Shown here: positions 8,663 through 36,688 of the stretch, in pieces | Layout of the letters: each line of letters opens with the position of its first letter | Numbering within the stretch: the stretch's first letter is position 1 | Source: a virus | Length of the DNA stretch: 42,880 nt | Strand: one strand, 5' to 3' | IMG/VR virus record: IMGVR_UViG_3300047362_000424 | Location: 1 to 42,880 of that record | Program-made: the position numbers and the translations under genes | Notes under the pieces: generated by a model | What the model saw: only the letters and a program-made list of their open reading frames with translations | Databases searched by the model: none | What the model was told of the DNA's origin: nothing

Positions 8663-8667
8663 TTATA

Positions 8668-10770: not shown

Positions 10771-10787
10771 ATGAATCTCTTTTTTAA

Positions 10788-10895: not shown

Positions 10896-10901
10896 TAAAG
10901 T

Positions 10902-11434: not shown

Positions 11435-11444
11435 AAATACTTAA

Positions 11445-21596: not shown

Positions 21597-22277
21597 TTAT
21601 AGATTATAAAATTGTTCTAAACGTTCGGCCCATTTAAGTTCCCATTGTTTAAATTCTGTACTATCTGCTTCAAATAATTGAAACTCACCTGCTCTACTGC
21701 ACATAAAAACAGCTATGTTTGATATGTTTGTTCCATACATTTCATTGTGGGCGTTTGCATAGGCCGCTCCTTGTAGGAAATAATCATCAATCCATTCACG
21801 TTTTTTAGGTTTATTGGTCTGTTTAAAGTCCATGATAGTTTGTTTACCTTTATATACTCCAACTAAATCTGTTGTACCTGCATATAAATCTTTTGCTACT
21901 AAATTAACCTCTGATCCCCACACTTCGCTAATATCAGGTTCCACATTGTCTATTACAACTTGTGCCATACCTTTTGCTTGTTTATGGACCATATTGTTTC
22001 CTGGATTGTATTCTTCATTTTTAAACCATTTTTCTAATATATTATGCATTACAGATCCAACATTAGATGCTTCAGTTACAATACGTTGTGCTTCAGCATC
22101 TCCTACACGTTTTTTCCATCTAGCCAATCCTGCTTTTTTATCTGCTGATTGGGTTGCACTTAAAATAGTGGTTACACTTGGAACAGGATCGCCCCAAGGA
22201 TTCTCATATAGACGTTTCCCGTCTACTGAGGTTCTTTTAAATTCTTTATAATCATAAGGGGATTTTATTTTTAACAT
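21597..22277 (-). CDS. PD-(D/E)XK (RecB/Cas4-like) nuclease
   Basis: Predicted DNA exonuclease of the RecB-like PD-(D/E)XK superfamily. Numbering from the ATG at 22277: H78 lies in GSVMHNILEKW, E123 in WGSEVNLVAKD, and D137 in YAGTTDLVGV. D150-F-K152 lies in QTIMDFKQT, and the Q-motif is LQGAAYANAH (about 168-177). All four core motifs are present, so it is probably active. 226 aa. The start is taken as the second ATG (22277), because the promoter at 22284-22312 puts +1 exactly there. The first ATG at 22283 overlaps the -10 element. No Shine-Dalgarno site precedes either ATG, so the mRNA is likely leaderless. Probable role in recombination or host DNA degradation. Confidence 0.85.
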   Translation of the reverse strand: MLKIKSPYDYKEFKRTSVDGKRLYENPWGDPVPSVTTILSATQSADKKAGLARWKKRVGDAEAQRIVTEASNVGSVMHNILEKWFKNEEYNPGNNMVHKQAKGMAQVVIDNVEPDISEVWGSEVNLVAKDLYAGTTDLVGVYKGKQTIMDFKQTNKPKKREWIDDYFLQGAAYANAHNEMYGTNISNIAVFMCSRAGEFQLFEADSTEFKQWELKWAERLEQFYNL

Positions 22278-22283
22278 ACTCAT

Positions 22284-22312
22284 AGTATATGTGCCTTCTA
22301 TAGAAATGTCAA
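22284..22312 (-). promoter_or_regulatory. Early promoter giving a predicted leaderless mRNA
   Basis: Minus strand TTGACA at 22312-22307, 17-bp spacer, TATACT at 22289-22284. The usual +1, seven bases past the -10, falls on 22277, the A of an in-frame ATG. No ribosome-binding site fits. Confidence 0.8.
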
Positions 22313-22335
22313 TGAGTTATTTGAGATTTTGTTGA

Positions 22336-22953
22336 TTACCAATATACATACCATTTAAAAGTTTTACTGGTATTAGTATTAGTTAGTCTTTCTATTTTGT
22401 ATCCTAGGTTTTGAAAATATTTAATTACTTGTTCCATTTGATTTGTTAGTCCACGATCAGTGGCAGTACCTTGCCAAATATTAAAATAATCAACACTTGT
22501 AGGATTAGATATACTGTATACACCTGCTACAAATCCTAGAGCTGTATTTGCAGTTCCTGCACCTATCTCATATGACCAAGTTGAACCTTGTGGCTCAGTT
22601 ATAGTAAGTATCAAGTAATTACTATCCTTTGAAGCCGTTAAACCTGCAACTCCTGCATCGTTGATATCTGCTACTATTGCGTTTAATGATGTTCCTGTGG
22701 TGCCTAATGTTATTGTATTATTATCAAAAATTAAAGTGTCACCTACTGTTATTGTTGGATTTAGTGCAGTTCCTATTTTTTGAACACTTGGCGTAGCTTC
22801 TGTCATTGTTGTAGTATCATCTACATATGCTTCAAAATTACCTAATGCACTCTGTGAAATAATTTCTTTCATTATTTCTTGTGTTTCAGTAAACACAATC
22901 ATATCTTGTGATGCTTTTGATCTAGCTTGTGCCGCGTTTAGTCCTACACTCAT
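22336..22953 (-). CDS. Virion-type protein, unknown (205 aa)
   Basis: ATG at 22953 overlapping the stop of the next gene upstream (ATGA). N-terminal helix GLNAAQARSKASQDMIVFTETQEIMKEI. Then a beta-rich domain with Thr/Gly/Asn (VGDTLIFDNNTITLGTTGTS, LTASKDSNYLILTI), and an alpha/beta end (YFQNLGYKIERLTN, TFKWYVYW). The beta-rich middle looks like a domain of fibre or baseplate proteins. No named family. Expressed with the preceding two genes from the late promoter at 24087-24094. Confidence 0.7.
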   Translation of the reverse strand: MSVGLNAAQARSKASQDMIVFTETQEIMKEIISQSALGNFEAYVDDTTTMTEATPSVQKIGTALNPTITVGDTLIFDNNTITLGTTGTSLNAIVADINDAGVAGLTASKDSNYLILTITEPQGSTWSYEIGAGTANTALGFVAGVYSISNPTSVDYFNIWQGTATDRGLTNQMEQVIKYFQNLGYKIERLTNTNTSKTFKWYVYW

Positions 22954-23279
22954 TTGTTTAACTCTTTTTTAACTTGCTTCTTAGCCATATTAGTTACGGT
23001 CTTATCTGCTTTTTCGGGGTCAACCTTGTTTAAATTACTAGCATCAAGACTTGAAGTATTAAAATAAACCATTCCATCTTTTATATTATTAACTATAGGT
23101 AAATTTGATATCTCATCAAATAATGATTCGTTATCAGCATCAACACCCATAGCTTTAAGTTCTTTAACTAAAGATTCTAGAGGAATACTATCTACACCTT
23201 CACTACTTAGAATTGAGAGTAGATCAATAACTTTTGAATCTACTTCAGAATTTAATTCGAAGAGTTGAGAGTACCTCAC
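22950..23279 (-). CDS. Hypothetical protein (109 aa)
   Basis: GTG start at 23279 with AGAGGT eight bases upstream. N-terminal helices (QLFELNSEVDSKVIDLLSIL, then SIPLESLVKELKAMG) with a winged-helix-like spacing, then NIKDGMVYFNTSSLD, and a Lys-rich C-terminus. It is too short for a firm domain call. A coupled stop/start with the 205-aa protein suggests joint assembly. Confidence 0.65.
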   Translation of the reverse strand: MRYSQLFELNSEVDSKVIDLLSILSSEGVDSIPLESLVKELKAMGVDADNESLFDEISNLPIVNNIKDGMVYFNTSSLDASNLNKVDPEKADKTVTNMAKKQVKKELNK

Positions 23280-23284
23280 GTTAA

Positions 23285-24052
23285 TTACCTCTTTAGTTCC
23301 GCAAATGCTTTTTTAAGAACGTCTTTGCTAATTTTACCTTCTGATTGTGCTTCTTTAACCATCTTGATTGCTTTTAGGTAAGGATCAACTGATTCTTCTT
23401 TCATCTCTCTACCTTCAGCATCTGACTCTGCACTAGCGGCATCAGCACCTTCAAAATCATCACCAGCTGGTTCTTCAGCAGGTGCATCAATTGCATCCAT
23501 ATCCATAGGTGCTTCAGGTGCAGGCTCCATACTCATATCTGTTGCTGGTGCTTGACCTTGTGCTACTAATACTGCGTTACTTACATCATCATTGGCTTTT
23601 TTAACTGCATCAAGAGCTGTACCAATTGCCATTTCAGCACTCTGTGAGAATGCTTCAGCTTCAGCAGTACCAACTTCTTCTTTCATTGCGTTAGTAATAC
23701 TCATTAGTTCTTCTACTTGCATACTTGCTAAATTTTCAGCCATTTTTTGTAAGTCGTCAGCCATTTGTTTTGCGGCTAGAAGTACTTCAGCTTGGTCCAA
23801 TTCGCTTTCCATTACTGGTTTATTTGACATAGCTTCTTTTATACCTTCTAATACTAACAATAACTTCTGATATTGTTTGTCATTTACTGCGATACCATTA
23901 TCACGTAATGACTTGATTTTAGATTCTGTAAATGTCTTAACTTTTTGTAGTTTGGCACCGTCTGCACCAAAGTTAAAGTTAACACCAAATACTTCTTTTA
24001 GAACTGAATCTAATTTCGTTATTTTGTTTACTTCTAAATTTTTTAAATCCAT
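23285..24052 (-). CDS. Helical phage protein with acidic Ala/Pro/Met linker (255 aa)
   Basis: ATG at 24052. Residues 1-160 are helical (LDSVLKEVFGVNFNFGADGA, AEVLLAAKQMADDLQKMAEN, MAIGTALDAVKKANDDVS). Then comes a low-complexity acidic linker (EPAPEAPMDMDAIDAPAEEP) and a C-terminal helix (DPYLKAIKMVKEA, ISKDVLKKAFAELKR). Similar proteins occur in marine T4-like phages near head genes, where a scaffold or internal core role is conceivable. That is inference. Confidence 0.75.
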   Translation of the reverse strand: MDLKNLEVNKITKLDSVLKEVFGVNFNFGADGAKLQKVKTFTESKIKSLRDNGIAVNDKQYQKLLLVLEGIKEAMSNKPVMESELDQAEVLLAAKQMADDLQKMAENLASMQVEELMSITNAMKEEVGTAEAEAFSQSAEMAIGTALDAVKKANDDVSNAVLVAQGQAPATDMSMEPAPEAPMDMDAIDAPAEEPAGDDFEGADAASAESDAEGREMKEESVDPYLKAIKMVKEAQSEGKISKDVLKKAFAELKR

Positions 24053-24086
24053 AATTTGACCCCTTCAGGTTTTTCTTAATATATTG

Positions 24087-24094
24087 TATTTATG
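24087..24094 (-). promoter_or_regulatory. Late promoter CATAAATA
   Basis: Minus strand CATAAATACAATA, 35 nt before the ATG at 24052, in the gap after the 202-aa gene. Confidence 0.65.
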
Positions 24095-24095
24095 C

Positions 24096-24704
24096 TTATA
24101 GGCAGGATTTGATCTGTTTTTTGGCTTCGTTCATCTTCTGAACCGCTTGACCTTGCTTGGCCATTGCTAAATCTAGCTTAAATCCTTCACTTACTTTGGA
24201 TTTTTGCTTGTAAAACGCCGCTTCAGCTAGTTGACTACCATAACGTACATCTAAATCAAGTAATTGTTTAATATTACTTGTCTTGCCATGCATCATACCT
24301 TTTACTATTCCCATTGCCGTTTCAAATAATGCAATTTGTTCGTGCAATACTTTACCATCTTCCTTGATAGTATAAAACATCTTTTTAATACCTGGAACAA
24401 CTTGTTCTTTGTCCATAGTGATCTCATATTCTGCAATCTTTACACTATTTCCTTGCTTTGTTGCTACAGCCATTGTAGGATCTTCATATGTTTCTTCTAC
24501 TGCTTCTTTAGCCACTTGTGTTGTAGCTTCGTCTAGTTTTTGCAGTATGTCATACATACCTTTAGCATTTTTGCTAACACTATTCAACAAATTTGCTTTT
24601 AATTCTGGATTGCTTTTTTGTTCAGTTTCTGTAGGAACTTTTGAACTCTCATTTAACTTTTGAATAAGTTCTTTCATTCCTTTTGTTTCTTCGTGTGTTG
24701 GCAT
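24096..24704 (-). CDS. Helical hypothetical protein (202 aa)
   Basis: ATG at 24704 with GGGAGCC upstream. The sequence is charged and helical (MKELIQKLNESSK, LLNSVSKNAKGMYDILQKLD), with a central beta section (VKIAEYEITMDKEQVVPGIK) and a C-terminal helical end (KLDLAMAKQGQAVQKMNEAK). It ends in KSCL. No domain recognised. Its neighbours are coupled by overlaps, and it is probably part of the late structural block. Confidence 0.7.
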   Translation of the reverse strand: MPTHEETKGMKELIQKLNESSKVPTETEQKSNPELKANLLNSVSKNAKGMYDILQKLDEATTQVAKEAVEETYEDPTMAVATKQGNSVKIAEYEITMDKEQVVPGIKKMFYTIKEDGKVLHEQIALFETAMGIVKGMMHGKTSNIKQLLDLDVRYGSQLAEAAFYKQKSKVSEGFKLDLAMAKQGQAVQKMNEAKKQIKSCL

Positions 24705-24913
24705 TATAGGCTCCCTTTCATTCTTTCATAGAATACTTTATTATTCTCAACTATTTTTTTAACAACATTTTTGTTAACCAAGTTTTGAATTAAAATTAAA
24801 TCTCGTTCGTTTAGATCGTCTTTGCATTTACGTTCTAACAAATTCTCATAACATTCACTTTCGTGAACTGAGATGAATACTGGAATGCCTCCGGGTTGTT
24901 CAATCGTTTTCAT
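24704..24913 (-). CDS. Small hypothetical protein (69 aa)
   Basis: ATG at 24913 overlaps the TAA of the preceding gene (TAATG) with GGGAGG upstream. Reads KTIEQPGGIPVFISVHESEC, then a helical LLERKCKDDLNERDLILIQNL and VKKIVENNKVFYERMKGSL. It looks like a compact winged-helix-like fold but with no certain DNA-contact motif. Confidence 0.65.
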   Translation of the reverse strand: MKTIEQPGGIPVFISVHESECYENLLERKCKDDLNERDLILIQNLVNKNVVKKIVENNKVFYERMKGSL

Positions 24914-25425
24914 TAACGACCTCCCATTGCCAATTGTTTAAGTCTTTCAATTTCTTGTGCATTTATATTTGATTGTTGCTGGTTTGCATCTGATTTATAT
25001 TTGTTTTCAGCTCTTTCAATATCATCTGGATCTGCACTACCTGCTCTTACTGCTCCTTGACCAGTTGGTTGTTTATTTGAACCCGCTACATATCTTTGTG
25101 GGTTACTTGAATCTCTTTTTGCATCTTGTTGTGCATTAGTAAAGTCTCTTTGATCATTGCCGTTGTTTGATGCTCTAATTGTAGCATTACTTGGCTTGGC
25201 TGTTTGTATTGTTCCATACCCAGCTTCATTGACTCTACTTAAATCTATAATTGATGAAAATTTATCATTGTCTTCATTTTTAATTGAATCTAATAAGTTA
25301 AGTGTATCGCCAAAAGATAACCCTTTTAATTGTTCCATGATGTCATCTTTTTTAAGTTCTAATCCGAACTTAACGTTAGCATAATCTATTACACTATCTA
25401 CTGTACTATTATTTACTATTTCCAT
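24913..25425 (-). CDS. Hypothetical protein with Gln/Asn-rich tail (170 aa)
   Basis: ATG at 25425 with AGAGGT upstream. The N-terminal 70 residues are helical (VDSVIDYANVKFGLELKKDD, FGDTLNLLDSIKN). After residue 75 it is low in complexity, with many Asn, Gln, Arg and Ser (TNAQQDAKRDSSNPQR, KYKSDANQQQSNINAQEI). The tail is likely disordered. No enzyme motif. Position suggests a minor virion or assembly protein. Confidence 0.65.
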   Translation of the reverse strand: MEIVNNSTVDSVIDYANVKFGLELKKDDIMEQLKGLSFGDTLNLLDSIKNEDNDKFSSIIDLSRVNEAGYGTIQTAKPSNATIRASNNGNDQRDFTNAQQDAKRDSSNPQRYVAGSNKQPTGQGAVRAGSADPDDIERAENKYKSDANQQQSNINAQEIERLKQLAMGGR

Positions 25426-25426
25426 C

Positions 25427-25714
25427 TTAACCTCTAGCTTTGTTTAATCTAGCAACAATACGACTTGCAGGATTTAACCTTTTAGAACGTACTGCCGCCT
25501 TTTGCATACGAGCACCTTTTTGTGCTCTTGTTTTTCTCATTACGAATCTCTTTTTGAGATCCATAGGTGCCGCACATTGACTAGGATTTGCTACAATTCT
25601 ATTCTTACGAATACCAACTGTGCAACGAAACTTCCTAGTTACAGCTTTACCTCTTCTAGCAAAAATTAATTTTGCTTCAGAAATTACTGTATTGTACGAC
25701 TCATTTAATAACAT
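25427..25714 (-). CDS. Very basic small protein (95 aa)
   Basis: ATG at 25714 (TAATG overlap). High content of Arg and Lys (LIFARRGKAVTRKFRCTVG, IRKNRIVANPSQC, KKRFVMRKTRAQKG), ending ARMQKAAVRSKRLNPASRI, then ARLNKARG. Two Cys (CTVG and QCAAP) could bind a metal or stay free. Such basic proteins in marine T4-like phages may bind DNA or RNA or lie in the capsid; no proof. Confidence 0.7.
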   Translation of the reverse strand: MLLNESYNTVISEAKLIFARRGKAVTRKFRCTVGIRKNRIVANPSQCAAPMDLKKRFVMRKTRAQKGARMQKAAVRSKRLNPASRIVARLNKARG

Positions 25715-26001
25715 TAACCTGCACCCAATAACGGAGTTACTGTATTTAAATTTAGTAACAACAATACTATTGTTGAGAGCAATCCTGCAATAACCGTTGC
25801 CGCGGCTCCAATGATTAGCTTGTTACTAGACATACTTGCTGATGTTTGCTTTTCTGCTACTTTACTCATAGCCGTAGTTAAGCCATCCACTTTAGTTTCT
25901 AATCTATTTAATTTTTCTTCCAACACGCGATACCTTTCCGCACACAGATCAACGTGTGCCTCTAGATTTTCACGCTCAAGCCTTGACTGATTCATTGCCA
26001 T
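25714..26001 (-). CDS. Coiled coil with C-terminal membrane anchor (95 aa)
   Basis: ATG at 26001. A helical, heptad-like first part (NLEAHVDLCAERYRVLEEKL, RLETKVDGLTTAMSKVAEKQ) is followed by a C-terminal hydrophobic helix (LIIGAAATVIAGLLSTIVLL). The organisation resembles the XhlA/hemolysin-like phage membrane proteins that help holins. The role here is not proven. The long leader contains a hairpin (GAGTAC/GTACTC). Confidence 0.7.
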   Translation of the reverse strand: MAMNQSRLERENLEAHVDLCAERYRVLEEKLNRLETKVDGLTTAMSKVAEKQTSASMSSNKLIIGAAATVIAGLLSTIVLLLLNLNTVTPLLGAG

Positions 26002-26077
26002 ATTATGTTCTCACATTCTTTGACAGCGTCTTATTAAGAGCTGATTTGTATGAGTACAATCATTCGTACTCTACTAC

Positions 26078-26085
26078 TATTTATA
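26078..26085 (-). promoter_or_regulatory. Late promoter TATAAATA
   Basis: Minus strand TATAAATAGTAGT. It lies 77 nt before the ATG at 26001 and overlaps the end of the 152-aa gene. The leader holds a 6-bp hairpin at 26052-26071. Confidence 0.75.
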
Positions 26086-26539
26086 TGTTTTCACTATATT
26101 TAAAGTAAGTATTTTTCTTATTCACTGTATTTGTGTCAATTATCTCTGGATCAATGCTTATTGTTTCGTTTAAATCTTCGTGTATTGGCATTTTATCAAA
26201 GTCTTCTTTTAACATATAAACGTCATTATTATCTTTTTTCCATGCATCTGCTGTCTCACTAGCAAATTTTAACACCCATACGGTATGAGTGCCTGTAAAA
26301 TTTGTGCCAAATTCATATTTGCTTATATCTTGCGAATCTAAAATTTGTACACTACTTAAAACTGGTTGAGATCTTAGACTAATACTTTGGATAAATGTAT
26401 TCAAGTTCTGTGCTTGGAAATACCCACTTGCACTTGTTTTTGGACTTACTACACCAGAATCTGTTATATCAATCAAGGTGTAAACCGTATAAAAATCAGT
26501 TGAGCCTGTTAATACTTCAACTGGCCTTGAAACTGCCAT
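26081..26539 (-). CDS. Conserved marine T4-like protein of unknown function (152 aa)
   Basis: ATG at 26539. N-terminus VSRPVEVLTGSTDFYTVYTL, then DSGVVSPKTSASGYFQAQNL, then QSISLRSQPVLSSVQIL. The TxFYTxxTLxDIT and QAQNLNTxIQSIxLRxQPVLS blocks are recalled from marine T4-like phages. The C-terminal part is acidic (NNDVYMLKEDFDKMPIHEDL). Probably a virion or tail-assembly component, without evidence for a precise role. Confidence 0.75.
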   Translation of the reverse strand: MAVSRPVEVLTGSTDFYTVYTLIDITDSGVVSPKTSASGYFQAQNLNTFIQSISLRSQPVLSSVQILDSQDISKYEFGTNFTGTHTVWVLKFASETADAWKKDNNDVYMLKEDFDKMPIHEDLNETISIDPEIIDTNTVNKKNTYFKYSENI

Positions 26540-26540
26540 A

Positions 26541-28453: not shown

Positions 28454-28698
28454 CTTGATGTCCTGATTTTTTTGATACCTCGATTAAAACGTTCGGGATC
28501 TCTATTTTTAATACTTAACATAATCCTTTTGTTTAAATCTTGAGCTGTTTCAGAATCAAAATTTGCATCAATCATTTCAAGAATATTGATAATACTACTG
28601 ATAGCATTGGTACCTCTACTCTCAAGGATTGCGTTTTTATCTTTCTTAGGTGCTAAAGAGTTTATTTCCTCTAACAAGCTACGAGTGCGTTTTTTCAT
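28450..28698 (-). CDS. Small hypothetical protein (82 aa)
   Basis: ATG at 28698 with GGAGAG upstream. Basic and helical: KKRTRSLLEEINSLAPKKDK, a Thr/Asn turn, IINILEMIDANFDSETAQDL, then ISIKNRDPERFNRGIKKIR-like Arg/Lys-rich end. It could bind nucleic acid or its coupled partner, the DUF6267-like protein. First gene after a late promoter. Confidence 0.65.
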   Translation of the reverse strand: MKKRTRSLLEEINSLAPKKDKNAILESRGTNAISSIINILEMIDANFDSETAQDLNKRIMLSIKNRDPERFNRGIKKIRTSR

Positions 28699-28731
28699 TG
28701 TATCTCTCCAGTAATAATTTACTTATAACTG

Positions 28732-28739
28732 TATTTATC
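28732..28739 (-). promoter_or_regulatory. Late promoter GATAAATA
   Basis: Minus strand GATAAATACAG, about 34 nt before the ATG at 28698. It overlaps the stop of the helicase gene. Confidence 0.7.
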
Positions 28740-30139
28740 TAATTATTACTTCTTTTCAGCATACTTCGAAGTTTGTCGTGTCCAGATAATGTGTTCTCTA
28801 CTACACTATTTTCAGCTATACTCTTCTCTTGATGGGTTACTTTGTTCTGTGCTTTAATTTTTTCAAACATAGCACTAGGTTGATTAGCTACAGATCCTTG
28901 CTCTTCTTCTGCTAAATCGCTAATACGAAGCCCAGATACGTCAAATGCTAGGTCTACTTTTTGCCCCACTCCACTACTACTTCTAGTCTTCATAAACTGT
29001 ATTTGATATCTGCCTCTTTCACGCATTGCTTGGCTACTAAAAATACCAATAACGTTATCTGCTGTCTGAATTTTACTTAAACCACCAGCAATATGAGAGT
29101 GATCAAATTCTACTTCTTCTACTGCACTTCTGTTTAACTGAGATGCTGTCGCTAGTAATATATCATTTTCTACTGCAAAATTACGCAATTCTTCTGATAC
29201 AAACTTGTCTTTAATAAACAGATCACTTGGACTTACTTTGCTCTGTGCTGGCATCATTAAGTCTAAGTAATCAACACATACTCCATCAATTTTTATATTG
29301 TTTTTTACTTCATACTCTTTAATAAAACTTGTAATAGTGTTAACTGTAATACCATTAGGTAATTGTACAATTTGCAATTTACCCGCATCTTTACCTTGCA
29401 TACGAACTTTTAAATCTACATCATCTGCATTTTTAAATACTTCTCTGGTATTCATTCCTGTTAGCATACTATCTAATCGCATACTACATAGTTCTTCACT
29501 TAATTCTAAACTAATATAAATTACATTTTGCCCTGCTAGTGCCCAGTTCAATGCCAAATTCTGTAAGAACAAACTTTTACCACCACCTGACGGTGCGGCA
29601 AATATATTTAATTCTCCTCTGTTAAATCCACCATATAGTTTTTTATCTACTTCAGCCCAACCTGTGCTAATACCACCTCTTTGATTTCTTATACGTTCAA
29701 TACGTTCAGCTGGACTTTTCCAATAATCTGTACCCATATGTTTTGCTAAACCTAATTGTACTGCTTCTTTTACCATTCTTTCTACAGGACCATATTCGCC
29801 CTTTTCTAAAAGATCAGCACTTTTTAAAATTGCACTTTCTAATGCTTTATGTCTACAAAATATTTCAAACTCATCTATAAACCATTTCTTATGTCTATCA
29901 TCAACATCTTTTAATGGCTGTAGTTCTAAATTTGAGATTGCTTTAATTTGATCTAGTGTAGGCAATGCTTGATATTCTGTTGCATGACTTTGTACAAATT
30001 CGACGGTTTTACGTAGCTCTCTGTCAAAGAATTCAGGATTTAATATTGCATTTACTCTAACAAATAAATCTTGATCTTGTGACAAGAATTCTACAAACAA
30101 TCTTTGTAGATCTACTGAATATTCTTTACCTTCGTTCAT
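28739..30139 (-). CDS. 41: Replicative DNA helicase (DnaB/gp41-like)
   Basis: Hexameric 5'-3' helicase that unwinds the phage fork and partners the primase. 466 aa. N-terminal domain residues 1-140 are helical (ELRKTVEFVQSHATEYQALP). The linker is followed by the RecA-type core. The Walker A is SGGGKS at 184-189, and the Walker B strand is GVCVDYLDLMMP. DnaB-type motifs follow with ATASQLNRSAVE and HIAGGLSKIQTADNVIGI. The start is the ATG at 30139, overlapping the primase stop (ATGA); a TTG two codons upstream is not needed. Both an early (30209-30237) and a late (30192-30199) promoter are embedded in the end of the primase gene. Confidence 0.95.
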   Translation of the reverse strand: MNEGKEYSVDLQRLFVEFLSQDQDLFVRVNAILNPEFFDRELRKTVEFVQSHATEYQALPTLDQIKAISNLELQPLKDVDDRHKKWFIDEFEIFCRHKALESAILKSADLLEKGEYGPVERMVKEAVQLGLAKHMGTDYWKSPAERIERIRNQRGGISTGWAEVDKKLYGGFNRGELNIFAAPSGGGKSLFLQNLALNWALAGQNVIYISLELSEELCSMRLDSMLTGMNTREVFKNADDVDLKVRMQGKDAGKLQIVQLPNGITVNTITSFIKEYEVKNNIKIDGVCVDYLDLMMPAQSKVSPSDLFIKDKFVSEELRNFAVENDILLATASQLNRSAVEEVEFDHSHIAGGLSKIQTADNVIGIFSSQAMRERGRYQIQFMKTRSSSGVGQKVDLAFDVSGLRISDLAEEEQGSVANQPSAMFEKIKAQNKVTHQEKSIAENSVVENTLSGHDKLRSMLKRSNN

Positions 30140-31146
30140 TTGCAAACCTTCCTCATTAATAGTTCAATTTTTGTTGGATTTTTGTGCCTACTATTTATAA
30201 TACTTCTTATTGTATACAATCTTCCGTATTTTGTCAAGGCATCACTTGCATCTTTACAATCTTTCCATTCTGGAAAGGATACACTGAAACCATGTTTTAT
30301 AGCAGACTTACACATCATTTTACCAGGTTCATCTAAATCTGGTAATACTATAATTTCTTTATCAAGGCTTTTTAATATCTCAGCCTGTTCTTCGTTTATA
30401 TTATTTCTACCTGTAGCACAACCATCTGTTACTATAGCATCAAGTTGACCTTCTGTAACTATAACCATTTCTCTATTTCTTGTTTGCCTATCAAGCCCAT
30501 ATACAAAATCTGCTTTAGGTTGTTGATTATAATATTTTGCTACTTCCTTAGGTGGAGTTCCTATCCATCTAGCAGTATAGCCTACTATATCATTCTTATA
30601 CGTAAATGGTATAATAAATCTTCTGTTCATTCTACCAAATTGTTTACTAGGGCTATACATAAGTCTAGAGTCAGTTACATCAAATCCTCTACTAGTTAAA
30701 TATGATACTGCATCAATCCAATTTTGATCAGGATCTTTAAATTCCATAAACGGCTTTGCACCCTCTGGTAAATCTTTTTTATCCCAACCAATATTTAATT
30801 GCTTTGGTTTTTCTTTTTTAATTAATAACGTAGCAACATCTTGCTCACGTAATAACTCTAGTTGAATACGATGTATATCGTTTTCATCTGCACCTAATAT
30901 AGTTAATAATTTTTTTAATTTGTTTGTTATTCTATTATGTTGTGTATACCCTGTTTTATAATTGCAATTAAAACAATTATATTGAAAATGATCTTCTTCA
31001 AAATAAAAACCACCTCTGCCTTTTGTATCTGGCCTGCTTTCACCGTTTCTTACACACATAGGACAATTACCAGAAACCCACCCATTGGGGTTACTTCGCC
31101 AGTTAGTAGGTATCAGAGTTCGAACGTAGTCATTCATTAAAGTCAT
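30136..31146 (-). CDS. 61: DNA primase (gp61-like)
   Basis: Synthesises RNA primers at the fork. 336 aa. The N-terminal zinc-binding domain has C28-P-M-C31 and C58-F-N-C61. The TOPRIM domain has IVTEGQLDAI with the catalytic Glu and LPDLDEPGK with the D-x-D-like residues. Basic segments FGRMNRRFIIPF and VGYTARWIG fit the RNA-polymerase core. The start is the ATG at 31146, which is exactly the +1 predicted from the promoter at 31153-31181. No Shine-Dalgarno site precedes it, so a leaderless mRNA is predicted. A second ATG lies three codons in. Coupled to the helicase downstream. Confidence 0.94.
   Translation of the reverse strand: MTLMNDYVRTLIPTNWRSNPNGWVSGNCPMCVRNGESRPDTKGRGGFYFEEDHFQYNCFNCNYKTGYTQHNRITNKLKKLLTILGADENDIHRIQLELLREQDVATLLIKKEKPKQLNIGWDKKDLPEGAKPFMEFKDPDQNWIDAVSYLTSRGFDVTDSRLMYSPSKQFGRMNRRFIIPFTYKNDIVGYTARWIGTPPKEVAKYYNQQPKADFVYGLDRQTRNREMVIVTEGQLDAIVTDGCATGRNNINEEQAEILKSLDKEIIVLPDLDEPGKMMCKSAIKHGFSVSFPEWKDCKDASDALTKYGRLYTIRSIINSRHKNPTKIELLMRKVCK
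30192..30199 (-). promoter_or_regulatory. Late promoter TATAAATA inside the primase gene
   Basis: Minus strand TATAAATAGTAG, matching the best late sites in the window. It would allow late transcription of the helicase and lies just below an early promoter. Confidence 0.6.
30209..30237 (-). promoter_or_regulatory. Early promoter embedded in the primase gene, upstream of the helicase
   Basis: Minus strand TTGACA at 30237-30232, 17-bp spacer, TACAAT at 30214-30209. Predicted +1 near 30202, leader of 63 nt to the helicase ATG. Confidence 0.65.
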
Positions 31147-31152
31147 AAGTGT

Positions 31153-31181
31153 ATATTACACTCTAATTACGACTTTGTCAA
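31153..31181 (-). promoter_or_regulatory. Early promoter giving a predicted leaderless primase mRNA
   Basis: Minus strand TTGACA at 31181-31176, 17-bp spacer, TAATAT at 31158-31153. The expected +1 falls on 31146, the A of the primase ATG. It overlaps the 3' end of the upstream gene. Confidence 0.8.
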
Positions 31182-31989
31182 GTGTTCCTGCTGATTGAGT
31201 AAATTTTGCTCTTAGATATTTAACGTTTGTTCGAAAAGTCCAAGGATCTATACCTGTATGGTTTAAATATGGAAAATATGTTTGAGTATTTGTACCAAGT
31301 GTGATATCAAACCAATCTGGTTCTGTAGGGTTATCACTTAAAGTACCTTGCATATAAAAATTACCAGTATAACCTGTACCATATACTCCTATTGTTACTA
31401 ATCCATTTGGTTTATCATAATAACCTGTTGCTTTTAATGAACTACTGTAATAGAATGTTTGATTGTTTACTGTTTGTTGTTGAAAGTTCTCATCTGCTTG
31501 TGTAGTAAGTGGTAATGCGTCACCTTCTTCACTTACATCTACAGTAAAGTTAGGTCTCATATTTAAATCACAAAATAATGGAACTGTTAGTCCTGTATCC
31601 GTAGTATAACTAAACACTAAATCATAATGTCCTTGTGAAAATCTTCCACTTTCACCTACTGTTATTATTACTTTAATACCACCTTGTATATAATCTGTGA
31701 TAATTGCTTTCTTACTTATTGTAGTTGACCTATCGTCTCTATCAATAAAAGAACAATATACTGTTGTACCTTGTAACATTACTGGTTTTCTATCTTGATT
31801 TTTAATAAAAAAGAAAAACTCATTATCAAATCCACGAAACAGTTTTAAGAATCTATAATTCATAGGACTATTAACTGCGGTACCTTTTGCACCTGCGTAT
31901 TTTGCTTGTCCTGCTGGTGTTCCGTGATCTTCTAATGTATAAAGATCGCCTTCTTGATTAACTTGGTATGTAGTTCCGTAATTTGACAT
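31156..31989 (-). CDS. Virion-type structural protein (277 aa)
   Basis: ATG at 31989 with AGGAG upstream. N-terminal GTTYQVNQEGDLYTLEDHGT, a conserved-looking block YRFLKLFRGFDNEFFFFIK, then MLQGTTVYCSFIDRDDRSTT. This is followed by beta-rich repeats of Thr/Asn/Gly (GTGYTGNFYMQGTLSDNPTE, WTFRTNVKYLRAKFTQ). The overall beta composition resembles baseplate or neck proteins of marine T4-like phages. Its own late promoter (32007-32014) fits that role. Confidence 0.72.
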   Translation of the reverse strand: MSNYGTTYQVNQEGDLYTLEDHGTPAGQAKYAGAKGTAVNSPMNYRFLKLFRGFDNEFFFFIKNQDRKPVMLQGTTVYCSFIDRDDRSTTISKKAIITDYIQGGIKVIITVGESGRFSQGHYDLVFSYTTDTGLTVPLFCDLNMRPNFTVDVSEEGDALPLTTQADENFQQQTVNNQTFYYSSSLKATGYYDKPNGLVTIGVYGTGYTGNFYMQGTLSDNPTEPDWFDITLGTNTQTYFPYLNHTGIDPWTFRTNVKYLRAKFTQSAGTLDKVVIRV

Positions 31990-32006
31990 ATATTGCTCCT
32001 ATGTAG

Positions 32007-32014
32007 TATTTATC
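32007..32014 (-). promoter_or_regulatory. Late promoter GATAAATA
   Basis: Minus strand GATAAATACTA, 18 nt before the ATG at 31989. It is divergent to the plus-strand gene at 32051, whose own octamer-like site lies at 32035-32042. Confidence 0.75.
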
Positions 32015-32034
32015 CAAAGTGGAGATTTCAAAAG

Positions 32035-32042
32035 GCTAAATA
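32035..32042 (+). promoter_or_regulatory. Candidate plus-strand late promoter GCTAAATA
   Basis: Plus strand GCTAAATACC, eight bases before the ATG at 32051. It differs from GATAAATA by one base. Only about 20 bp separate it from the divergent minus-strand late promoter. The predicted +1 would lie at the ATG or one base before, with no Shine-Dalgarno site. Confidence 0.45.
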
Positions 32043-32050
32043 CCTATAGA

Positions 32051-32422
32051 ATGCAAACCAAACATCAGAAACTCTTAGAGCAATATCCATTCTTAACCGT
32101 CATTGAGTATGCCAACAACGAATACCTGGGTATAATGCAGAATATAGATAGTCACGTGGCTAGTATGTACATCTACGATCGTCTTAGCGAAGAGTATGAA
32201 AAAATGAAATTTTTAGAATTAGGTGAAGAATGGTGGTGGGAAACTAATAGAAAACTTCCAATAAACATTGCATTACTTAATAGATGGAACTTTGCCCATT
32301 GTGTACAAAGTTTTAATGTTAAACAAATGGAAGTAATTGCTGGGCCCGAAGTTAGATTAAGTAATAGTATTACTAAACGTATAAAACGTAGAAGTATTAA
32401 TCTTGTAAAGAAAGGCCCGTAG
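32051..32422 (+). CDS. Only plus-strand gene: conserved marine T4-like protein (123 aa)
   Basis: ATG at 32051. Reads QTKHQKLLEQYPFLTVIEYA, then NEYLGIMQNIDSHVASMYIY, then LELGEEWWWETNRKLPINIA. The last part contains FNVKQMEVIAGPEVRLSNSI and a basic tail KRIKRRSINLVKKGP. The block of three Trp after an acidic pair, and the overall layout, are recalled from marine T4-like phages, where function is unknown. No membrane segment. It ends 26 nt inside the convergent minus-strand gene, so the two mRNAs overlap at their 3' ends. Confidence 0.82.
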   Translation: MQTKHQKLLEQYPFLTVIEYANNEYLGIMQNIDSHVASMYIYDRLSEEYEKMKFLELGEEWWWETNRKLPINIALLNRWNFAHCVQSFNVKQMEVIAGPEVRLSNSITKRIKRRSINLVKKGP

Positions 32423-32981
32423 CCATCATATTTAATTGTAAGACAATAGCTAATGCATATGCATGAGCATGAGCTTTTTTAAAAAAGTATTCATCGCCTG
32501 ATGGCTTTTTCCAAACATTTTCATTTATATTATTCCAATTTTGTTTTAACAAATGACGTTTAGCAGGTCTTATTACTGCTAGTACTGCCGCTAATTGTTC
32601 AACACTTTTAGGTTTTAAAGTGTTAACTATATCAAAATGTTTATGTATATGAAAGCATTTTTCTACTACCTCTTTATGCTCTAACAACTCCCACATTGGC
32701 TCCATTGCTAACAGTTGATTAAGATGTTCTTTTGATTTTATATCTTTATACAAGCCAACATTAAGTACATCAATTTTAAAGTAACCCATATCTTCTGCTT
32801 CTTTGTAGTCTACACTAGATAGTCCTGTAAATGGATTACTAGGCATATCATGAAAGTATACGCCTGTATTATGTTTTGTTTGTTTGTTTTCTTTTAATAT
32901 CATAGCAGTAGTACCTTTAATTAATTTTAAAAGTCTGTTTCTATCTGCTACATCAATATCAATATCTGTATTAACTATCAT
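32397..32981 (-). CDS. DnaE-like (C-family polymerase) fingers fragment, stand-alone
   Basis: 194 aa. Two blocks look like parts of bacterial DNA polymerase III alpha. The first is YFKIDVLNVGLYKDI (about 69-83), like the F-KxDxLGL block. The second pair is LKPKSVEQLAAVLAVIRPAK, like the KPxSxEDLAAxxALxRPG block, and FKKAHAHAYALAIVLQLN, like FNKSHAAAYAxxxYQ. The catalytic palm is missing, so it cannot be a polymerase by itself. Short proteins with this make-up are recalled in marine T4-like phages. They could act as a regulator or decoy of host DnaE, but that is conjecture. ATG at 32981 with AAAGAGGA upstream; overlaps the 30-aa gene. Confidence 0.75.
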   Translation of the reverse strand: MIVNTDIDIDVADRNRLLKLIKGTTAMILKENKQTKHNTGVYFHDMPSNPFTGLSSVDYKEAEDMGYFKIDVLNVGLYKDIKSKEHLNQLLAMEPMWELLEHKEVVEKCFHIHKHFDIVNTLKPKSVEQLAAVLAVIRPAKRHLLKQNWNNINENVWKKPSGDEYFFKKAHAHAYALAIVLQLNMMATGLSLQD

Positions 32982-33063
32982 TTGGATCCTCTTTATTCAT
33001 TTTGTATAACAAGTATACAGGAATTATAAAACAACACAATATACAAAGTATTGGTATTATCAT
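32971..33063 (-). CDS. 30-aa membrane peptide
   Basis: Short frame with ATG at 33063 overlapping the TGA of the preceding gene (ATGA), ending 11 nt inside the next gene. It reads IIPILCILCCFIIPVYLLYK then MNKEDPNDS: one hydrophobic helix with three Cys, then a hydrophilic C-terminus. The helix explains the otherwise empty 78-bp gap and the coupling suggests real translation, but with no homologue known to me the call is tentative. Confidence 0.5.
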   Translation of the reverse strand: MIIPILCILCCFIIPVYLLYKMNKEDPNDS

Positions 33064-33731
33064 AATTCTGCTTTTTGCAATATCTCCGTAACCCATCTAC
33101 TATCTTGTGGGTTTACACTCATGGCTCTTTGCCAATAGTCTATTTCTAAAAATTCATTAACCATTTTTAATTGTTCTGTACTAAAATTATCAATCATAAC
33201 TTGTGCTTCGCTACTATGAAACAATACCCAAGGAGATATCTTTCCACTACAAATATGAAATACGGCTAAATTTGTAGATATTTTTGTAAAATATTTGTTA
33301 TAGGTTGTATCGTTTTCTTTTGCCCATTCTTGTAAAAATAATATAGTACGTTCTACACCTCTATCTACACTTTCTGTTTTTAAACGTTCTTTCATCCACT
33401 TCTTAAATTGTGAATCTCTATTCCAATGATCTAGCCTTACTGAATTCCTAACTAGCCATTCTGTAAATGCTGGAACATCATCTATTCCAATATCTCTACA
33501 ATAATAACCAAATTTTACAAATGCAGTATAATATGGACTTGTTGCAAATTCATCATATGTCTTTTCATTTTTAGAATTAGTACCTATTCTATAAAATAAT
33601 TGATAAGACCTAAATCCTAATTGTACGTGCTTTTCATCTTTTTGCATGAACCTACGTTTTTGTTCACACATATGTACTGATAGTGTGCTTTCTTTTGCAA
33701 ATGATTTTCCACAATAGTTACACTTAAACAT
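33060..33731 (-). CDS. Zinc-finger-containing phage protein (223 aa)
   Basis: Starts with a C2H2-like finger: C4-N-Y-C7 then H20 and C22 (FKCNYCGKSFAKESTLSVHM), a C2HC-type arrangement. The rest is helical and aromatic (LGFRSYQLFYRIGTNSK, FVKFGYYCRDIGIDDVPAFT, RTILFLQEWAKEN). ATG at 33731 overlaps the stop of the cupin gene (TAATG) and has AAAGGA upstream. Resembles unnamed marine phage proteins; nucleic-acid binding is likely but unproven. Confidence 0.78.
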   Translation of the reverse strand: MFKCNYCGKSFAKESTLSVHMCEQKRRFMQKDEKHVQLGFRSYQLFYRIGTNSKNEKTYDEFATSPYYTAFVKFGYYCRDIGIDDVPAFTEWLVRNSVRLDHWNRDSQFKKWMKERLKTESVDRGVERTILFLQEWAKENDTTYNKYFTKISTNLAVFHICSGKISPWVLFHSSEAQVMIDNFSTEQLKMVNEFLEIDYWQRAMSVNPQDSRWVTEILQKAEL

Positions 33732-34057
33732 TAATGATTCCTTTTGCCATCAAATACACAAACAAAATATAAACCTTGTGGTCCACATTTGACTCTATGA
33801 TGCACTCCATCTTCAATTAACACAACATCACCAGCTTGTACAAACATCTCTTTATCATCTAGCCACATAGTACCAGCTCCTTTAACAAAGTAATATACTT
33901 CTTCTTGTCCACTATGGTTATGCCCACGTGTTGACTTATATGGGTGTAATTCTGTACTGCTTAATACTAGGTTGTTTAATAACTTGTTATCTTTTAATAT
34001 GTAAGTTTCGTTATCTTTAATAACTTCTCCACCAATATCCATTATATTGTATTTCAT
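33731..34057 (-). CDS. Cupin-domain protein (108 aa)
   Basis: Single-domain cupin. Motif 1, G-H46-N-H48 ... E52 with GQEEVYYFVKGAGTMWLD, and motif 2, AGDVVLIEDGVHHRV with H86, supply a full set of metal ligands. Such small cupins are often sugar-phosphate isomerases or dioxygenases, but the substrate cannot be read from the sequence. Possible auxiliary metabolic gene. ATG at 34057 overlaps the stop of the preceding gene by ATGA. It lies in the UvsW operon. Confidence 0.85.
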   Translation of the reverse strand: MKYNIMDIGGEVIKDNETYILKDNKLLNNLVLSSTELHPYKSTRGHNHSGQEEVYYFVKGAGTMWLDDKEMFVQAGDVVLIEDGVHHRVKCGPQGLYFVCVFDGKRNH

Positions 34058-34512
34058 TTTAATAACTCTTTTATTTCTTTTTTAGTCATTCCGTATTCCT
34101 CAAATAACTCAATAAAGTCTTCTTTAGTTTTATTGCTTATAAAAATATCAACTTCGTCATCATTTAATTGACTGTAGTTTTTAACTACCCACTCTTGTAT
34201 CTTATTTTTCTTACCTCGTTTACCCGGTGCTATCCAAGGATGAAATGTAGGTTTGCCAAGTCCTACTAATTGTAATAGTTTAAACTGTAATTCAGGATGT
34301 TGTCGTAATTTATTAAAATGAACATTGACTACTTCATTAGTCCATTCTAAGTAATGCTCTGTAAAGTTTTTATCACCTGCACTACTTGTATATCTCATTA
34401 ACGGCCAAAGACTTAATTTACCTTTTTCTTCATCTGTAAGACTATTGTACCATTTTCTATCTTTGGTATCAATTGCTCTCATTTCACTCTTAATATCTAG
34501 CTTACTCATCAT
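34054..34512 (-). CDS. Conserved marine T4-like protein of unknown function (152 aa)
   Basis: ATG at 34512 (MMSKLD; a second ATG follows at once), with AAAGG upstream. Blocks: TKDRKWYNSLTDEEKGKLSL, WPLMRYTSSAGDKNFTEHYL, then ELQFKLLQLVGLGKPTFHPW and a Lys-rich GKRGKKNKIQEWV. The LSLWPLMRY and HPW(I)xPGKRGKKNK blocks are recalled from marine T4-like phages. Position between a zinc-ribbon protein and a cupin in the UvsW operon suggests a replication or recombination role, by context only. Confidence 0.75.
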   Translation of the reverse strand: MMSKLDIKSEMRAIDTKDRKWYNSLTDEEKGKLSLWPLMRYTSSAGDKNFTEHYLEWTNEVVNVHFNKLRQHPELQFKLLQLVGLGKPTFHPWIAPGKRGKKNKIQEWVVKNYSQLNDDEVDIFISNKTKEDFIELFEEYGMTKKEIKELLK

Positions 34513-34705
34513 TTGCCTTTATGTCTTGTGCTATCATATCGTATATGCTACTGTAACACCATTCACAAAATGTAACTGGTAATATACCAAAGTGTCCTTG
34601 TATTCCACCTGCATCTTCATTGTACTTACTATCACATATGCTACAAGTATCTTTTGGTTTAAATGGATCTTCTTGTTGTTTCTTCATAATACTACCAAAG
34701 TTCAC
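34502..34705 (-). CDS. Small zinc-ribbon-like protein (61-67 aa)
   Basis: Two CxxC pairs are readable: C-S-I-C in KDTCSICDSKYN and C-E-W-C in VTFCEWCYSSIYDM, separated by about 25 residues, as in a zinc ribbon. The start is uncertain. GTG at 34705 overlaps the preceding stop, and ATG at 34687 gives 61 aa. Neither has a good Shine-Dalgarno site. The stop overlaps the next gene. Confidence 0.72.
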   Translation of the reverse strand: MNFGSIMKKQQEDPFKPKDTCSICDSKYNEDAGGIQGHFGILPVTFCEWCYSSIYDMIAQDIKANDE

Positions 34706-34714
34706 TTATGTCAA
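34686..34714 (-). promoter_or_regulatory. Possible early promoter at the start of the zinc-ribbon gene
   Basis: Minus strand TTGACA at 34714-34709, 17-bp spacer, TATTAT at 34691-34686. The predicted +1 (34679) lies just inside the zinc-ribbon coding sequence, so it would serve the following genes. It could be chance within coding sequence. Confidence 0.4.
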
Positions 34715-35192
34715 GTACCTCCGGTAGTTTATTTGCTTCTTTAACAAATAATACACATGGTGCATTTGGTTTATCACTTAATGGAACATTTAGTAAATGT
34801 CCAAATTTTAATTTAGGTGCATACCATTTTACGTCAGTATAAATATTGGTAATTTGAATATCCATAAACTTGGGTGTATATCCTGTAATAGGATTAAATG
34901 CAAATACACTAAATCCTCTATCGTTTAAGCTCATTAAACTTACTACTTCTGGATCTCCAACACTTGGATCGCATATTACTACACTCCAGTCTAATGGCAT
35001 AGTAATTTGGTATTCACCAATTTTAAGTACTGCCGCTGGTGCATAAAAACTTTCTAAGAATACAAGTGGTATAAAATAATAATCTATATGACTAGGATTA
35101 CTATAATCTAAAATACTGTATCTTAAATCTTCTATTGTATCTGGTATGTCGTCAAGTTCATACGTATTGTTGTCTACTGTTAATATTTTCAT
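34692..35192 (-). CDS. Conserved marine T4-like protein of unknown function (166 aa)
   Basis: ATG at 35192 with AAGGAA upstream. Reads HIDYYFIPLVFLESFYAPAA, then GEYQITMPLDWSVVICDP, then VSLMSLNDRGFSVFAFNPIT, and KLKFGHLLNVPLSDKPNAPC. The LNDRGFxxFxFNP block is recalled from marine T4-like phages. Beta-rich, no catalytic motif. It is directly downstream of UvsW. Confidence 0.75.
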   Translation of the reverse strand: MKILTVDNNTYELDDIPDTIEDLRYSILDYSNPSHIDYYFIPLVFLESFYAPAAVLKIGEYQITMPLDWSVVICDPSVGDPEVVSLMSLNDRGFSVFAFNPITGYTPKFMDIQITNIYTDVKWYAPKLKFGHLLNVPLSDKPNAPCVLFVKEANKLPEVLDISELW

Positions 35193-35201
35193 TTTTATTC
35201 C

Positions 35202-36653
35202 TTAAAGCCAATTTACTTTTTCAATAGTAAATGGATAATTTGCTTCTTTGTAAAATTTCTTACGTTCTGTAAGATGTCTTTTACTAAATTTAGCTGAACT
35301 TGTAATATCCCATATCTGCACATTATCTTTGTCTTCTGCTTTTCTAATACCACGTCCAATACTTTGTATTACTCTAACAAAGCTCTTTCCTGGTTCTATT
35401 AAAACAAGATTAAATATACGTGGAATATTAATACCTACTGCCGCAACACCATATGTTGCTACAACAATTTGATTAGTTCCCTCATTAATGTCGTCATAAT
35501 GATCTTTACGTGTAGTAGTTTTCATCTCACCACTAACAAAGTTAGCTTCAGCTATATTATCGCATATTAGCTGACCTGCTTTGATTCTATCTACTAATAC
35601 AAGAGTATTACCAGAAGCAGATACTTTTTTAATTAAACCACTTATATACTTCATACGTGAAGCATTAGTAGTTAGGTAAGTTAGTTCGCTTTGATAATTG
35701 TTGTATTCTGATACTTCTTTTAATTGCACTACATTAACATGACATTGACTTAGAACTTCTTTTTCTTGTAGTTCACTTGCCGCCAGTTTGTGTGTAACTT
35801 CTCCTAAACAAGCCTGTAAACTAACCTTCTCATGATCAGCTTTTGGTATAGTGCCTGTTAAACCCCATCTTAGTGGAATGTTTGAAAAATCTTTTGTTAG
35901 TAATTCTTTTAATACTTCTGCTTTTGCTTGATGTACTTCGTCAACTATTACACATACTACATCTTCTGCAAAATCTACTAAACTTAAATCTGATTCTCCT
36001 TCTTTAAATCTTTTTCTTATACTGTTTAAACTCTGCCAAGTACAAATAGTATGGGTGTGTCCTAATTCTTTTTTGTCGCCATAATAAACGCCAACATCTA
36101 ATCCTAAATTTGCATAATCAGCATATGTTTGTGTAACTAAATCTTTATTAGGTACAATAACAATGCTCCTTCCATACTTTTCTACTTTGTTGCTTAATGC
36201 CGCGGTTATTAACGTCTTACCGGCACCTGTAGCTATCTCCTGTAGACAATGTGGTGTTGCTAGATACTTGTTAATAATTTCTACTTGATAGTCTCTTAAA
36301 ATTACAGGCTCGCCTGCAACAACATGACCTTCTGGCCACACTTTGTTTTCAAATGTGTTTTCATCTACAGGATCAAATTGAAAGTCATATTTAAAACGTA
36401 AGTCATTTAGATCTATTTCATAACCCTGTCCCATAATAATAGGCAATACTTTATCTAATAGGTTAGTATACGTAATTCCACCTATAGTGAAATAAGACGT
36501 ACATCCATCCCATCTACCTAGCTTAAAAGCTGGTACGTGATATGCATAAGGAAGAAAAAACTTTAATTCTTTTTCACACTTTCTACGTGTGTCTATATCT
36601 AAGCCTTCTACTTTGCAATTCACTTCATCTTTCAGAGTTATCTTACATTTCAT
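35202..36653 (-). CDS. uvsW: UvsW-like SF2 DNA helicase
   Basis: ATP-dependent helicase that processes recombination intermediates and unwinds R-loops in T4. 483 aa. N-terminal 110 residues are the UvsW-type DNA-binding domain (HVPAFKLGRWDGCTSYFT). Walker A is ATGAGKT (141-147). The DEVH box is D238-E-V-H. Motif III-like WGLTGTIP and a C-terminal VIQSIGRGIRKAED (motif VI) are present. ATG at 36653 coincides with the +1 of the promoter at 36660-36688, and no ribosome-binding site precedes it. The mRNA is therefore predicted to be leaderless. In T4, uvsW is a late gene; here a TATAAATA octamer also overlaps the start region, but its +1 would lie inside the gene. Confidence 0.94.
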   Translation of the reverse strand: MKCKITLKDEVNCKVEGLDIDTRRKCEKELKFFLPYAYHVPAFKLGRWDGCTSYFTIGGITYTNLLDKVLPIIMGQGYEIDLNDLRFKYDFQFDPVDENTFENKVWPEGHVVAGEPVILRDYQVEIINKYLATPHCLQEIATGAGKTLITAALSNKVEKYGRSIVIVPNKDLVTQTYADYANLGLDVGVYYGDKKELGHTHTICTWQSLNSIRKRFKEGESDLSLVDFAEDVVCVIVDEVHQAKAEVLKELLTKDFSNIPLRWGLTGTIPKADHEKVSLQACLGEVTHKLAASELQEKEVLSQCHVNVVQLKEVSEYNNYQSELTYLTTNASRMKYISGLIKKVSASGNTLVLVDRIKAGQLICDNIAEANFVSGEMKTTTRKDHYDDINEGTNQIVVATYGVAAVGINIPRIFNLVLIEPGKSFVRVIQSIGRGIRKAEDKDNVQIWDITSSAKFSKRHLTERKKFYKEANYPFTIEKVNWL

Positions 36654-36659
36654 ATTTAT

Positions 36660-36688
36660 ATATTACAGTACTTATGTTGAATTGTCAA
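36660..36688 (-). promoter_or_regulatory. Early promoter giving a predicted leaderless uvsW mRNA
   Basis: Minus strand TTGACA at 36688-36683, 17-bp spacer, TAATAT at 36665-36660. The expected +1 falls exactly on 36653, the A of the uvsW ATG. A TATAAATA octamer (36660-36653) overlaps the -10 and the first base of the start codon. It may be accidental or a second, late control. Confidence 0.8.

Follow-up and report, generated by a model that had tools for sequence, protein, structure and literature searches.

Leaderless messages are predicted for conserved DNA-metabolism genes of large phages

Promoters abutting three start codons

We analysed the whole 42,880-base virus record IMGVR_UViG_3300047362_000424 from IMG/VR (hereafter the window), in which three minus-strand genes begin directly behind a promoter. 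The first gene (21597..22277) encodes an exonuclease of the PD-(D/E)XK type (phrog_298, E = 5e-56); its PD-(D/E)XK match in Pfam (PF12705, E = 0.0024) falls under the Pfam cut-off. The second (30136..31146) encodes a DNA primase like T4 gp61 (phrog_47, E = 9.5e-31, and Toprim_2), and the third (35202..36653) encodes a UvsW-type helicase (phrog_16, E = 3.9e-75; ResIII and Helicase_C). The promoters of all three are of the sigma70 type, with TTGACA, a spacer of 16-18 nucleotides (nt) and a TATAAT-like -10 box.

The exonuclease promoter (22312-22284, minus strand) consists of TTGACA, 17 nt and TATACT, and is followed by ATGAGT and then the ATG. The primase promoter (31181-31153, minus strand) has TTGACA, 17 nt and TAATAT, followed by ACACTT and ATG. 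The uvsW promoter (36688-36660, minus strand) has the same boxes and spacer length as that of the primase, and ATAAAT precedes its ATG. The original prediction had described these sites as TTGACA-17-TANNNT-6-ATG without Shine-Dalgarno sites. This description was confirmed letter for letter, and no Shine-Dalgarno site was seen before any of the three ATGs of the window. The pattern TTGACA-N17-TANNNT-N6-ATG matched the window three times, compared with a mean of 0.02 matches in 100 dinucleotide shuffles, which never gave three.

The exonuclease gene has an extra in-frame ATG at 22283, which abuts the -10 box and was picked by the caller of open reading frames (ORFs), the frame being open from there. 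This ATG would precede the transcript. It is also absent in many relatives, which retain the ATG six bases further on. Therefore, 22277 is the likelier start of this gene, as predicted from the relatives.

The -35 box and spacer of the primase promoter fall within the end of the upstream ORF (31156..31989, minus strand), a virion-structural-like gene by its match to phrog_14467, and the stop codon TAA of this ORF is part of the -10 box TAATAT. Because its last codons overlap the promoter, part of the conservation of the primase promoter may be coding. By our reading, four relatives (L108, L109, L120 and L129) still have the primase arrangement although their upstream frame closes ahead of the -35 box. 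We thus rejected purely coding conservation. Just upstream of the uvsW promoter, a hairpin search revealed an intrinsic-terminator-like structure (36716..36740, minus strand), so the local promoter is likely to be the main source of the uvsW message in the window. The T4-type late promoter motif is TATAAATA. A box of this type overlaps the uvsW ATG of the window, but by our reading most relatives do not have it, and we rejected it as a candidate.

Four other promoters in the window with exact consensus boxes stand 30, 53, 56 and 95 nt before their ATGs, corresponding to leaders of about 24, 47, 50 and 89 nt. The remaining ones are internal to genes or lie before a transfer RNA (tRNA) gene.

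Conservation of the arrangement

We surveyed the same genes in IMG/VR relatives, together with a fourth gene, the dNMP kinase, which is introduced below. The near sets of UvsW and dNMP kinase were the best 80 of 192 and the best 80 of 184 loci. Loci whose match did not contain the gene start were dropped, which left 78 of 80 UvsW loci (L006 and L046 removed), 53 of 55 primase loci (L102 and L119 removed) and 55 of 60 exonuclease loci (L186, L189, L192, L194 and L195 removed); all 80 dNMP kinase loci were used.

All of the 53 primase loci had a distance of 6 nt between the -10 box and the ATG. The distance was 6 nt in 70 of the 78 UvsW loci, 7 nt in three and 23-26 nt in five. Among the 55 exonuclease loci, 43 had 6 nt, two had 39 nt, and ten had a double ATG similar to that of the window, one abutting the box and the second in frame at 6 nt. 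With the double-ATG exonucleases counted (53 of 55), a spacing of exactly 6 nt was observed in 176 of the 186 loci of the three genes. Conserved spacing in relatives had been named beforehand as a check on the original prediction, and the sequences agreed with it. The bases flanking the promoters differ among the near relatives, while boxes and spacing stay constant. The regions upstream of the exonuclease promoter are even dissimilar between groups of relatives, yet the promoter-ATG unit is identical. As the arrangement has been kept in so many related phage sequences, it is real rather than coincidental, and it is probably functional.

The start codons themselves were also conserved. The chosen start codon was ATG in all 266 near loci of the four genes. 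In the alignments of exonuclease and UvsW the first methionine does not vary, and most of the aligned primases match up at their first residue.

In five long relatives, the histogram of promoter-to-ATG distances peaked at exactly 6 nt. All five carried the fourth gene with this arrangement, which lies outside the window and encodes a dNMP kinase (phrog_139, PF21448) behind TTGACA-17-TATAAT-6-ATG. Among the 80 IMG/VR loci of this kinase, the distance was 6 nt in 50, 7 nt in three and 23 nt in five, and 22 had no strong promoter. The gene set was originally claimed to consist of DNA-processing functions; this still holds, with the kinase as a new member.

We also screened 99 ortholog groups, each present in at least three of four long relatives, and judged each gene by its best-scoring promoter only, allowing at most two mismatches. 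In four groups (UvsW, primase, exonuclease and dNMP kinase), the best promoter stood 5-8 nt before the ATG in 15 of 16 members; the exception was the leadered UvsW of one relative (G004). None of the members of the other 95 groups had its best promoter at 5-8 nt. In nine other groups, three or more members had a strong promoter, and the distances of 14-147 nt varied between genomes (for example, 95, 111, 96 and 75 nt). The exception among the nine was a group with 63 nt in three genomes, whose promoter lies inside the primase gene.

To more distant relatives, we extended the survey by alignment-based scans, taking the best 80 of at least 554 primases (window query), at least 568 primases (query from phage 121Q), at least 589 UvsWs and at least 589 exonucleases. 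The first primase scan reached down to 35% identity to the primase of the window, and the second down to 29% identity to that of 121Q. The UvsWs had 49-60% identity to that of PA5oct and the exonucleases 45-53% to that of Atu_ph07. One rule was applied to these wide sets: distances of 5-9 nt were accepted, the box score was less strict, and the count includes two primases in which the arrangement is accompanied by a Shine-Dalgarno word. One of the 80 sequences was unusable in each wide primase set and in the wide UvsW set. The arrangement was found in 74 of 79 primases with the window query, in 69 of 79 with the 121Q query and in 54 of 80 exonucleases; shuffled upstream sequences gave 0.6-1%. 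Restricting the first primase set to distances of 5-8 nt gave 68 of 80, with a further six at 9 nt.

The two wide primase scans overlap in contigs, and hence we counted unique proteins in the pooled near and wide sets. The 225 primase, 162 UvsW and 144 exonuclease rows comprised 145, 110 and 90 unique proteins; the rows set aside were duplicates, were short, or offered no usable start or upstream sequence. The arrangement was present in 128 of the 145 primases, 64 of the 90 exonucleases and 69 of the 110 UvsWs. On FastTree trees, its state changed at least 9 times in primases, at least 6 times in exonucleases and at least 13 times in UvsWs. A few distant primases (L400, L401, L504 and that of PA5oct) start with GTG instead of ATG.

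Among these 345 unique proteins, 264 had a strong promoter within 80 nt and 81 did not. The distances from the -10 box to the start were bimodal: 234 at 5-9 nt, only two at 10-20 nt and 19 at 21-80 nt, with nine more at 0-4 nt. The two intermediate proteins were both exonucleases at 13 nt. All nine proteins at 0-4 nt were exonucleases as well, and six of them at distance zero are presumably of the type with two in-frame ATGs. The near-empty class of 10-20 nt equals leaders of about 4-14 nt, and a gap at 4-14 nt has likewise been reported among the mapped leaders of Lactococcus cremoris (PMC10986495). Taken together, the bimodal distances and the gene-specific conservation are the best sequence evidence for leaderless messages.

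Two further genes may be mentioned. The clamp-loader small subunit is of the leaderless type in seven loci, all in one subclade (L068-L070 and L072-L075), where the gene lies directly after the promoter. In the window, a strong promoter at 34686-34714 lies within the last part of the upstream ORF. It precedes a short ORF (34502-34705), which by eye resembles a zinc ribbon, and a clamp-loader-like gene (34054-34512). A 170-amino-acid gene (G002:C1:42926-43438 and G001:C1:220189-220701) has consensus boxes with a spacer of 16 nt, 6 or 9 nt before its ATG, and might be a further leaderless gene.

Interpretation and competing explanations

In sigma70 promoters, the usual RNA start is the seventh base past the -10 box. 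We consider that each of the sites is a fused module of promoter and start codon that would yield a leaderless mRNA translated from its 5′-terminal AUG, and we give this reading a probability of about 0.85. A host-type sigma70 RNA polymerase would bind the -35 and -10 boxes, and the RNA would begin at the seventh base, namely the A of the ATG. A ribosome (70S, or 30S with initiator tRNA) would then bind directly to the 5′-terminal AUG of a message that lacks a Shine-Dalgarno site. The prediction of leaderless mRNAs passed the spacing comparison, the ortholog screen and the examination of bimodal distances, and such messages seem very likely for the three genes. The sequences themselves establish the boxes, their exact spacing, the conservation over a wide divergence, the restriction to four DNA-metabolism groups out of 99 in the clade of the window and the near-absence of intermediate distances; where the RNA begins, how the ribosome binds and what purpose this serves are inferred. 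Most probably, the arrangement allows enzymes required in modest amounts to be expressed independently, with promoters that can lie against or inside a neighboring gene or directly after a terminator.

The frequency of Shine-Dalgarno words (GGAG, GAGG or AGGA in the usual zone) was also compared among unique upstream sequences of the four genes. Random ATGs had such a word in 4-8% of cases. It was found in 12 of the 14 unique upstreams lacking the arrangement, and in 0 of the 112 with it, a figure partly forced by the -10 box, which takes up part of the Shine-Dalgarno zone. The 27 dNMP kinase loci lacking the arrangement had 11 unique upstreams, 10 of them with a Shine-Dalgarno word. After correction for the trees, the exchange of the leaderless type for a Shine-Dalgarno word had the expected direction but was not significant in any of three genes. 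For UvsW, 11 tree pairs gave 3.9 opposite, 0.0 same and 7.1 without difference (median P = 0.125). The Shine-Dalgarno contrast is thus support, not proof.

Besides the forced share of this contrast and its lack of significance on the trees, several other observations weigh against our interpretation. The original prediction had named relatives with longer leaders and ribosome-binding sites as evidence to the contrary. Most relatives keep the arrangement, but a minority are leadered or promoterless: five of 78 UvsW loci (L016, L017, L021, L027 and L052), two of 55 exonuclease loci (L183 and L184) and 27 of 80 dNMP kinase loci. Those relatives mostly have a Shine-Dalgarno word, as counted above, and the primases of several isolates are leadered. 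By our reading, a -10-like box lies 24-32 nt ahead of the ATG in the primases of GAP32, RaK2, 121Q, Munch and XaC1, together with an AGGA-type site. The primases of Phosso, Atu_ph07 and Vibrio phage 2.275.O do not belong to the leaderless type either. In the wide UvsW set, only 28 of 79 sequences have the arrangement, although this still exceeds the frequency in shuffled upstreams. A matched control, the DnaB-like helicase beside the primase, scored in 12 of 84 loci. In single genomes, a strong promoter 5-9 nt ahead of an ATG marks a few further candidates (G001 at 192594, 212322 and 220701; G002 at 42926, 51647 and 33378), none of which was conserved in the 99-group screen. Unstructured 5′ ends were rejected as a general property: the mean energy of the first 30 nt of the mRNA was -0.38 kcal/mol for UvsW and -0.03 for exonuclease, weaker than the background of -1.19, and -1.11 for primase and -1.41 for dNMP kinase, not clearly so. 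It is also possible that primase, exonuclease and dNMP kinase are read from upstream messages.

Leaderlessness might be a specific control device, in which initiation of the 70S type lets replication genes be translated when the phage or the host alters initiation factors, S1 or the state of the ribosome. The confinement of the conserved arrangement to DNA-metabolism genes in the clade of the window agrees with this idea, and in the review PMC9031893 leaderless translation is reported to respond to initiation factor 3, initiator tRNA and stress. However, the gene set fits low-dosage or compactness accounts too, and several related phages manage without the arrangement. Dedicated control by the ribosome state is a possible but rather doubtful explanation.

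Alternatively, lack of room could have pushed the promoter against the ATG, with loss of the leader as a neutral by-product. The primase promoter and, by our reading, some exonuclease promoters do overlap the end of the upstream ORF. The uvsW gene of the window, in contrast, has about 100 bases and the terminator upstream, yet its promoter abuts the ATG. The nine other promoter-led groups keep 14-147 nt, and distances of 10-20 nt, which are nearly as compact, are almost missing. Compactness is not sufficient as the sole cause and is an unlikely explanation on its own.

Still less likely, in our judgment, is a scenario with real promoters in which the proteins are made mostly from longer read-through messages, in coupling to the preceding gene, and the RNA start at the ATG is incidental. 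The primase ATG lies 9 nt past the upstream stop codon. Terminator-like hairpins were absent before the promoters of primase (0/31), exonuclease (0/30) and dNMP kinase (0/35), and a strong local promoter was lacking in 22 of the 80 dNMP kinase loci, whose unique upstreams contain GAGG in eight of nine cases. Nevertheless, incidental starts would not stay near 6 nt in primases with identities down to 35%, nor would they avoid 10-20 nt. No Shine-Dalgarno word has been retained for a read-through message, and a terminator precedes some uvsW promoters (12 of 44 unique relatives, compared with 0.2 in shuffles).

Chance boxes or misassigned ATGs can practically be dismissed: single -10-like boxes are common in this AT-rich genome, but complete matches exceeded the shuffled expectation by far, were conserved across relatives and preceded a first methionine that is invariant in two of the alignments.

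Related phages, known leaderless systems and implications

No near DNA match was found among phage records when 20 kb of the window was searched. The best protein relatives were in jumbo phages: the UvsW of Sinorhizobium phage Phosso (56%), the exonuclease of Agrobacterium phage Atu_ph07 (48%) and the primases of PA5oct-group Pseudomonas phages (39%). Two long relatives carry a permuted transfer-messenger RNA of the alphaproteobacterial type (RF01849; L210:6260-6602 in a 221-kb contig and L219:7133-7479 in a 205-kb contig), so the host is likely to be alphaproteobacterial. Pelagiphage membership and early expression, both named in the original prediction, are assumptions. The window has five tRNA genes (Glu, Asp, Ala, Leu and Thr) at 8587-11520, with a consensus promoter (9292-9320) directly before tRNA-Asp. 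A 58-nt part of the tRNA-Thr matches one contig each of Rhodobacteraceae, Micavibrio and a metagenome-assembled genome of Gammaproteobacteria, which is weak evidence for the host. Two near-identical promoter-like sequences lie 35 kb apart in the window (2555-2583 and 37666-37694) and are perhaps copies of one regulated promoter.

Many environmental relatives have the leaderless arrangement, whereas few of the examined isolates do. We found no UvsW of the leaderless type in Phosso and PA5oct, and no such exonuclease in Phosso, Atu_ph07, Vibrio phage 2.275.O and 023Pt. In the jumbo phage AR9, the mapped untranslated regions are given as 26-491 nt (PMC5312081). Two isolates share the layout in their primases. 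That of SCTP-2 (L252:601-1635) has TTGACA-16-TAGCAT-6-ATG; this start precedes the annotated one by 96 nt, and the extra N-terminal residues contain the conserved NCPxC motif. In that of PA5oct (L249:529-1557), the layout is TTGACA-17-TATAAT-6-GTG. Its GTG lies two codons downstream of the annotated start, and the annotation is probably two codons too long. Both database starts look wrong, which may arise when a gene caller seeks a Shine-Dalgarno site.

In the lambda cI promoter, the -10 box lies a few bases before the AUG that becomes the 5′ end of the mRNA, and there is no Shine-Dalgarno site. The genes described here resemble it in both respects. Lambda cI, which is named as leaderless in PMC9031893 (lambda also appears in PMC3160421), is however one repressor gene of a temperate phage, whereas here a widely conserved set for replication, recombination and nucleotide metabolism, linked to a T4-type replisome, is leaderless by prediction. 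Predicted leaderless promoters are also described for cluster O mycobacteriophages (PMC4351075). These infect Actinobacteria, where more than 20% of genes are reported as leaderless (PMC3160421), and the cited part of the cluster O report ties the promoters to no conserved replication gene set. In Deinococcus-Thermus, a -10 motif adjoins ORFs, and experiments in Deinococcus link it to leaderless transcription (PMC12340547); similar TA-led genes were described by Zheng et al. 2011 (PMC3160421). The position of TANNNT about 6-7 bp before the ORF is alike. The difference is that the motif there is a genome-wide feature of the host, affecting nearly a third of the genes of D. radiodurans according to the source, while here it is limited to four of 99 ortholog groups and joined to a near-consensus -35 box. 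Sinorhizobium meliloti, with 171 leaderless start sites (PMC3616915), is an alphaproteobacterial example. Its transcripts likewise start at the first base of the AUG, in a host class that is plausible given the two tmRNA-bearing relatives, but they are from cellular genes rather than a phage. Single leaderless phage genes are already known; for large or jumbo phages, a literature search without subscription papers and preprints turned up no account of a conserved set of leaderless replication genes.

A bolder reading, less likely than not, would place the primase above all, and then exonuclease, UvsW and dNMP kinase, in an ancient translational class maintained by large phages that have a T4-type replisome. 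Messages beginning at the AUG would give these proteins a route of translation apart from the Shine-Dalgarno messages of the other phage genes, one that might be usable when canonical initiation changes during infection. When leaderless phage mRNAs are cited, the examples are usually single genes, lambda cI among them. A leaderless primase, extending to the identities reached by both wide scans and to SCTP-2 and, with GTG, PA5oct among isolates, would stand out among leaderless genes for the depth of its conservation. There is also a consequence for annotation, as the database version of the SCTP-2 primase is 96 nt too short and misses residues of the conserved cysteine motif. Finally, the conserved arrangement provides a comparative data set on why a gene avoids a leader.

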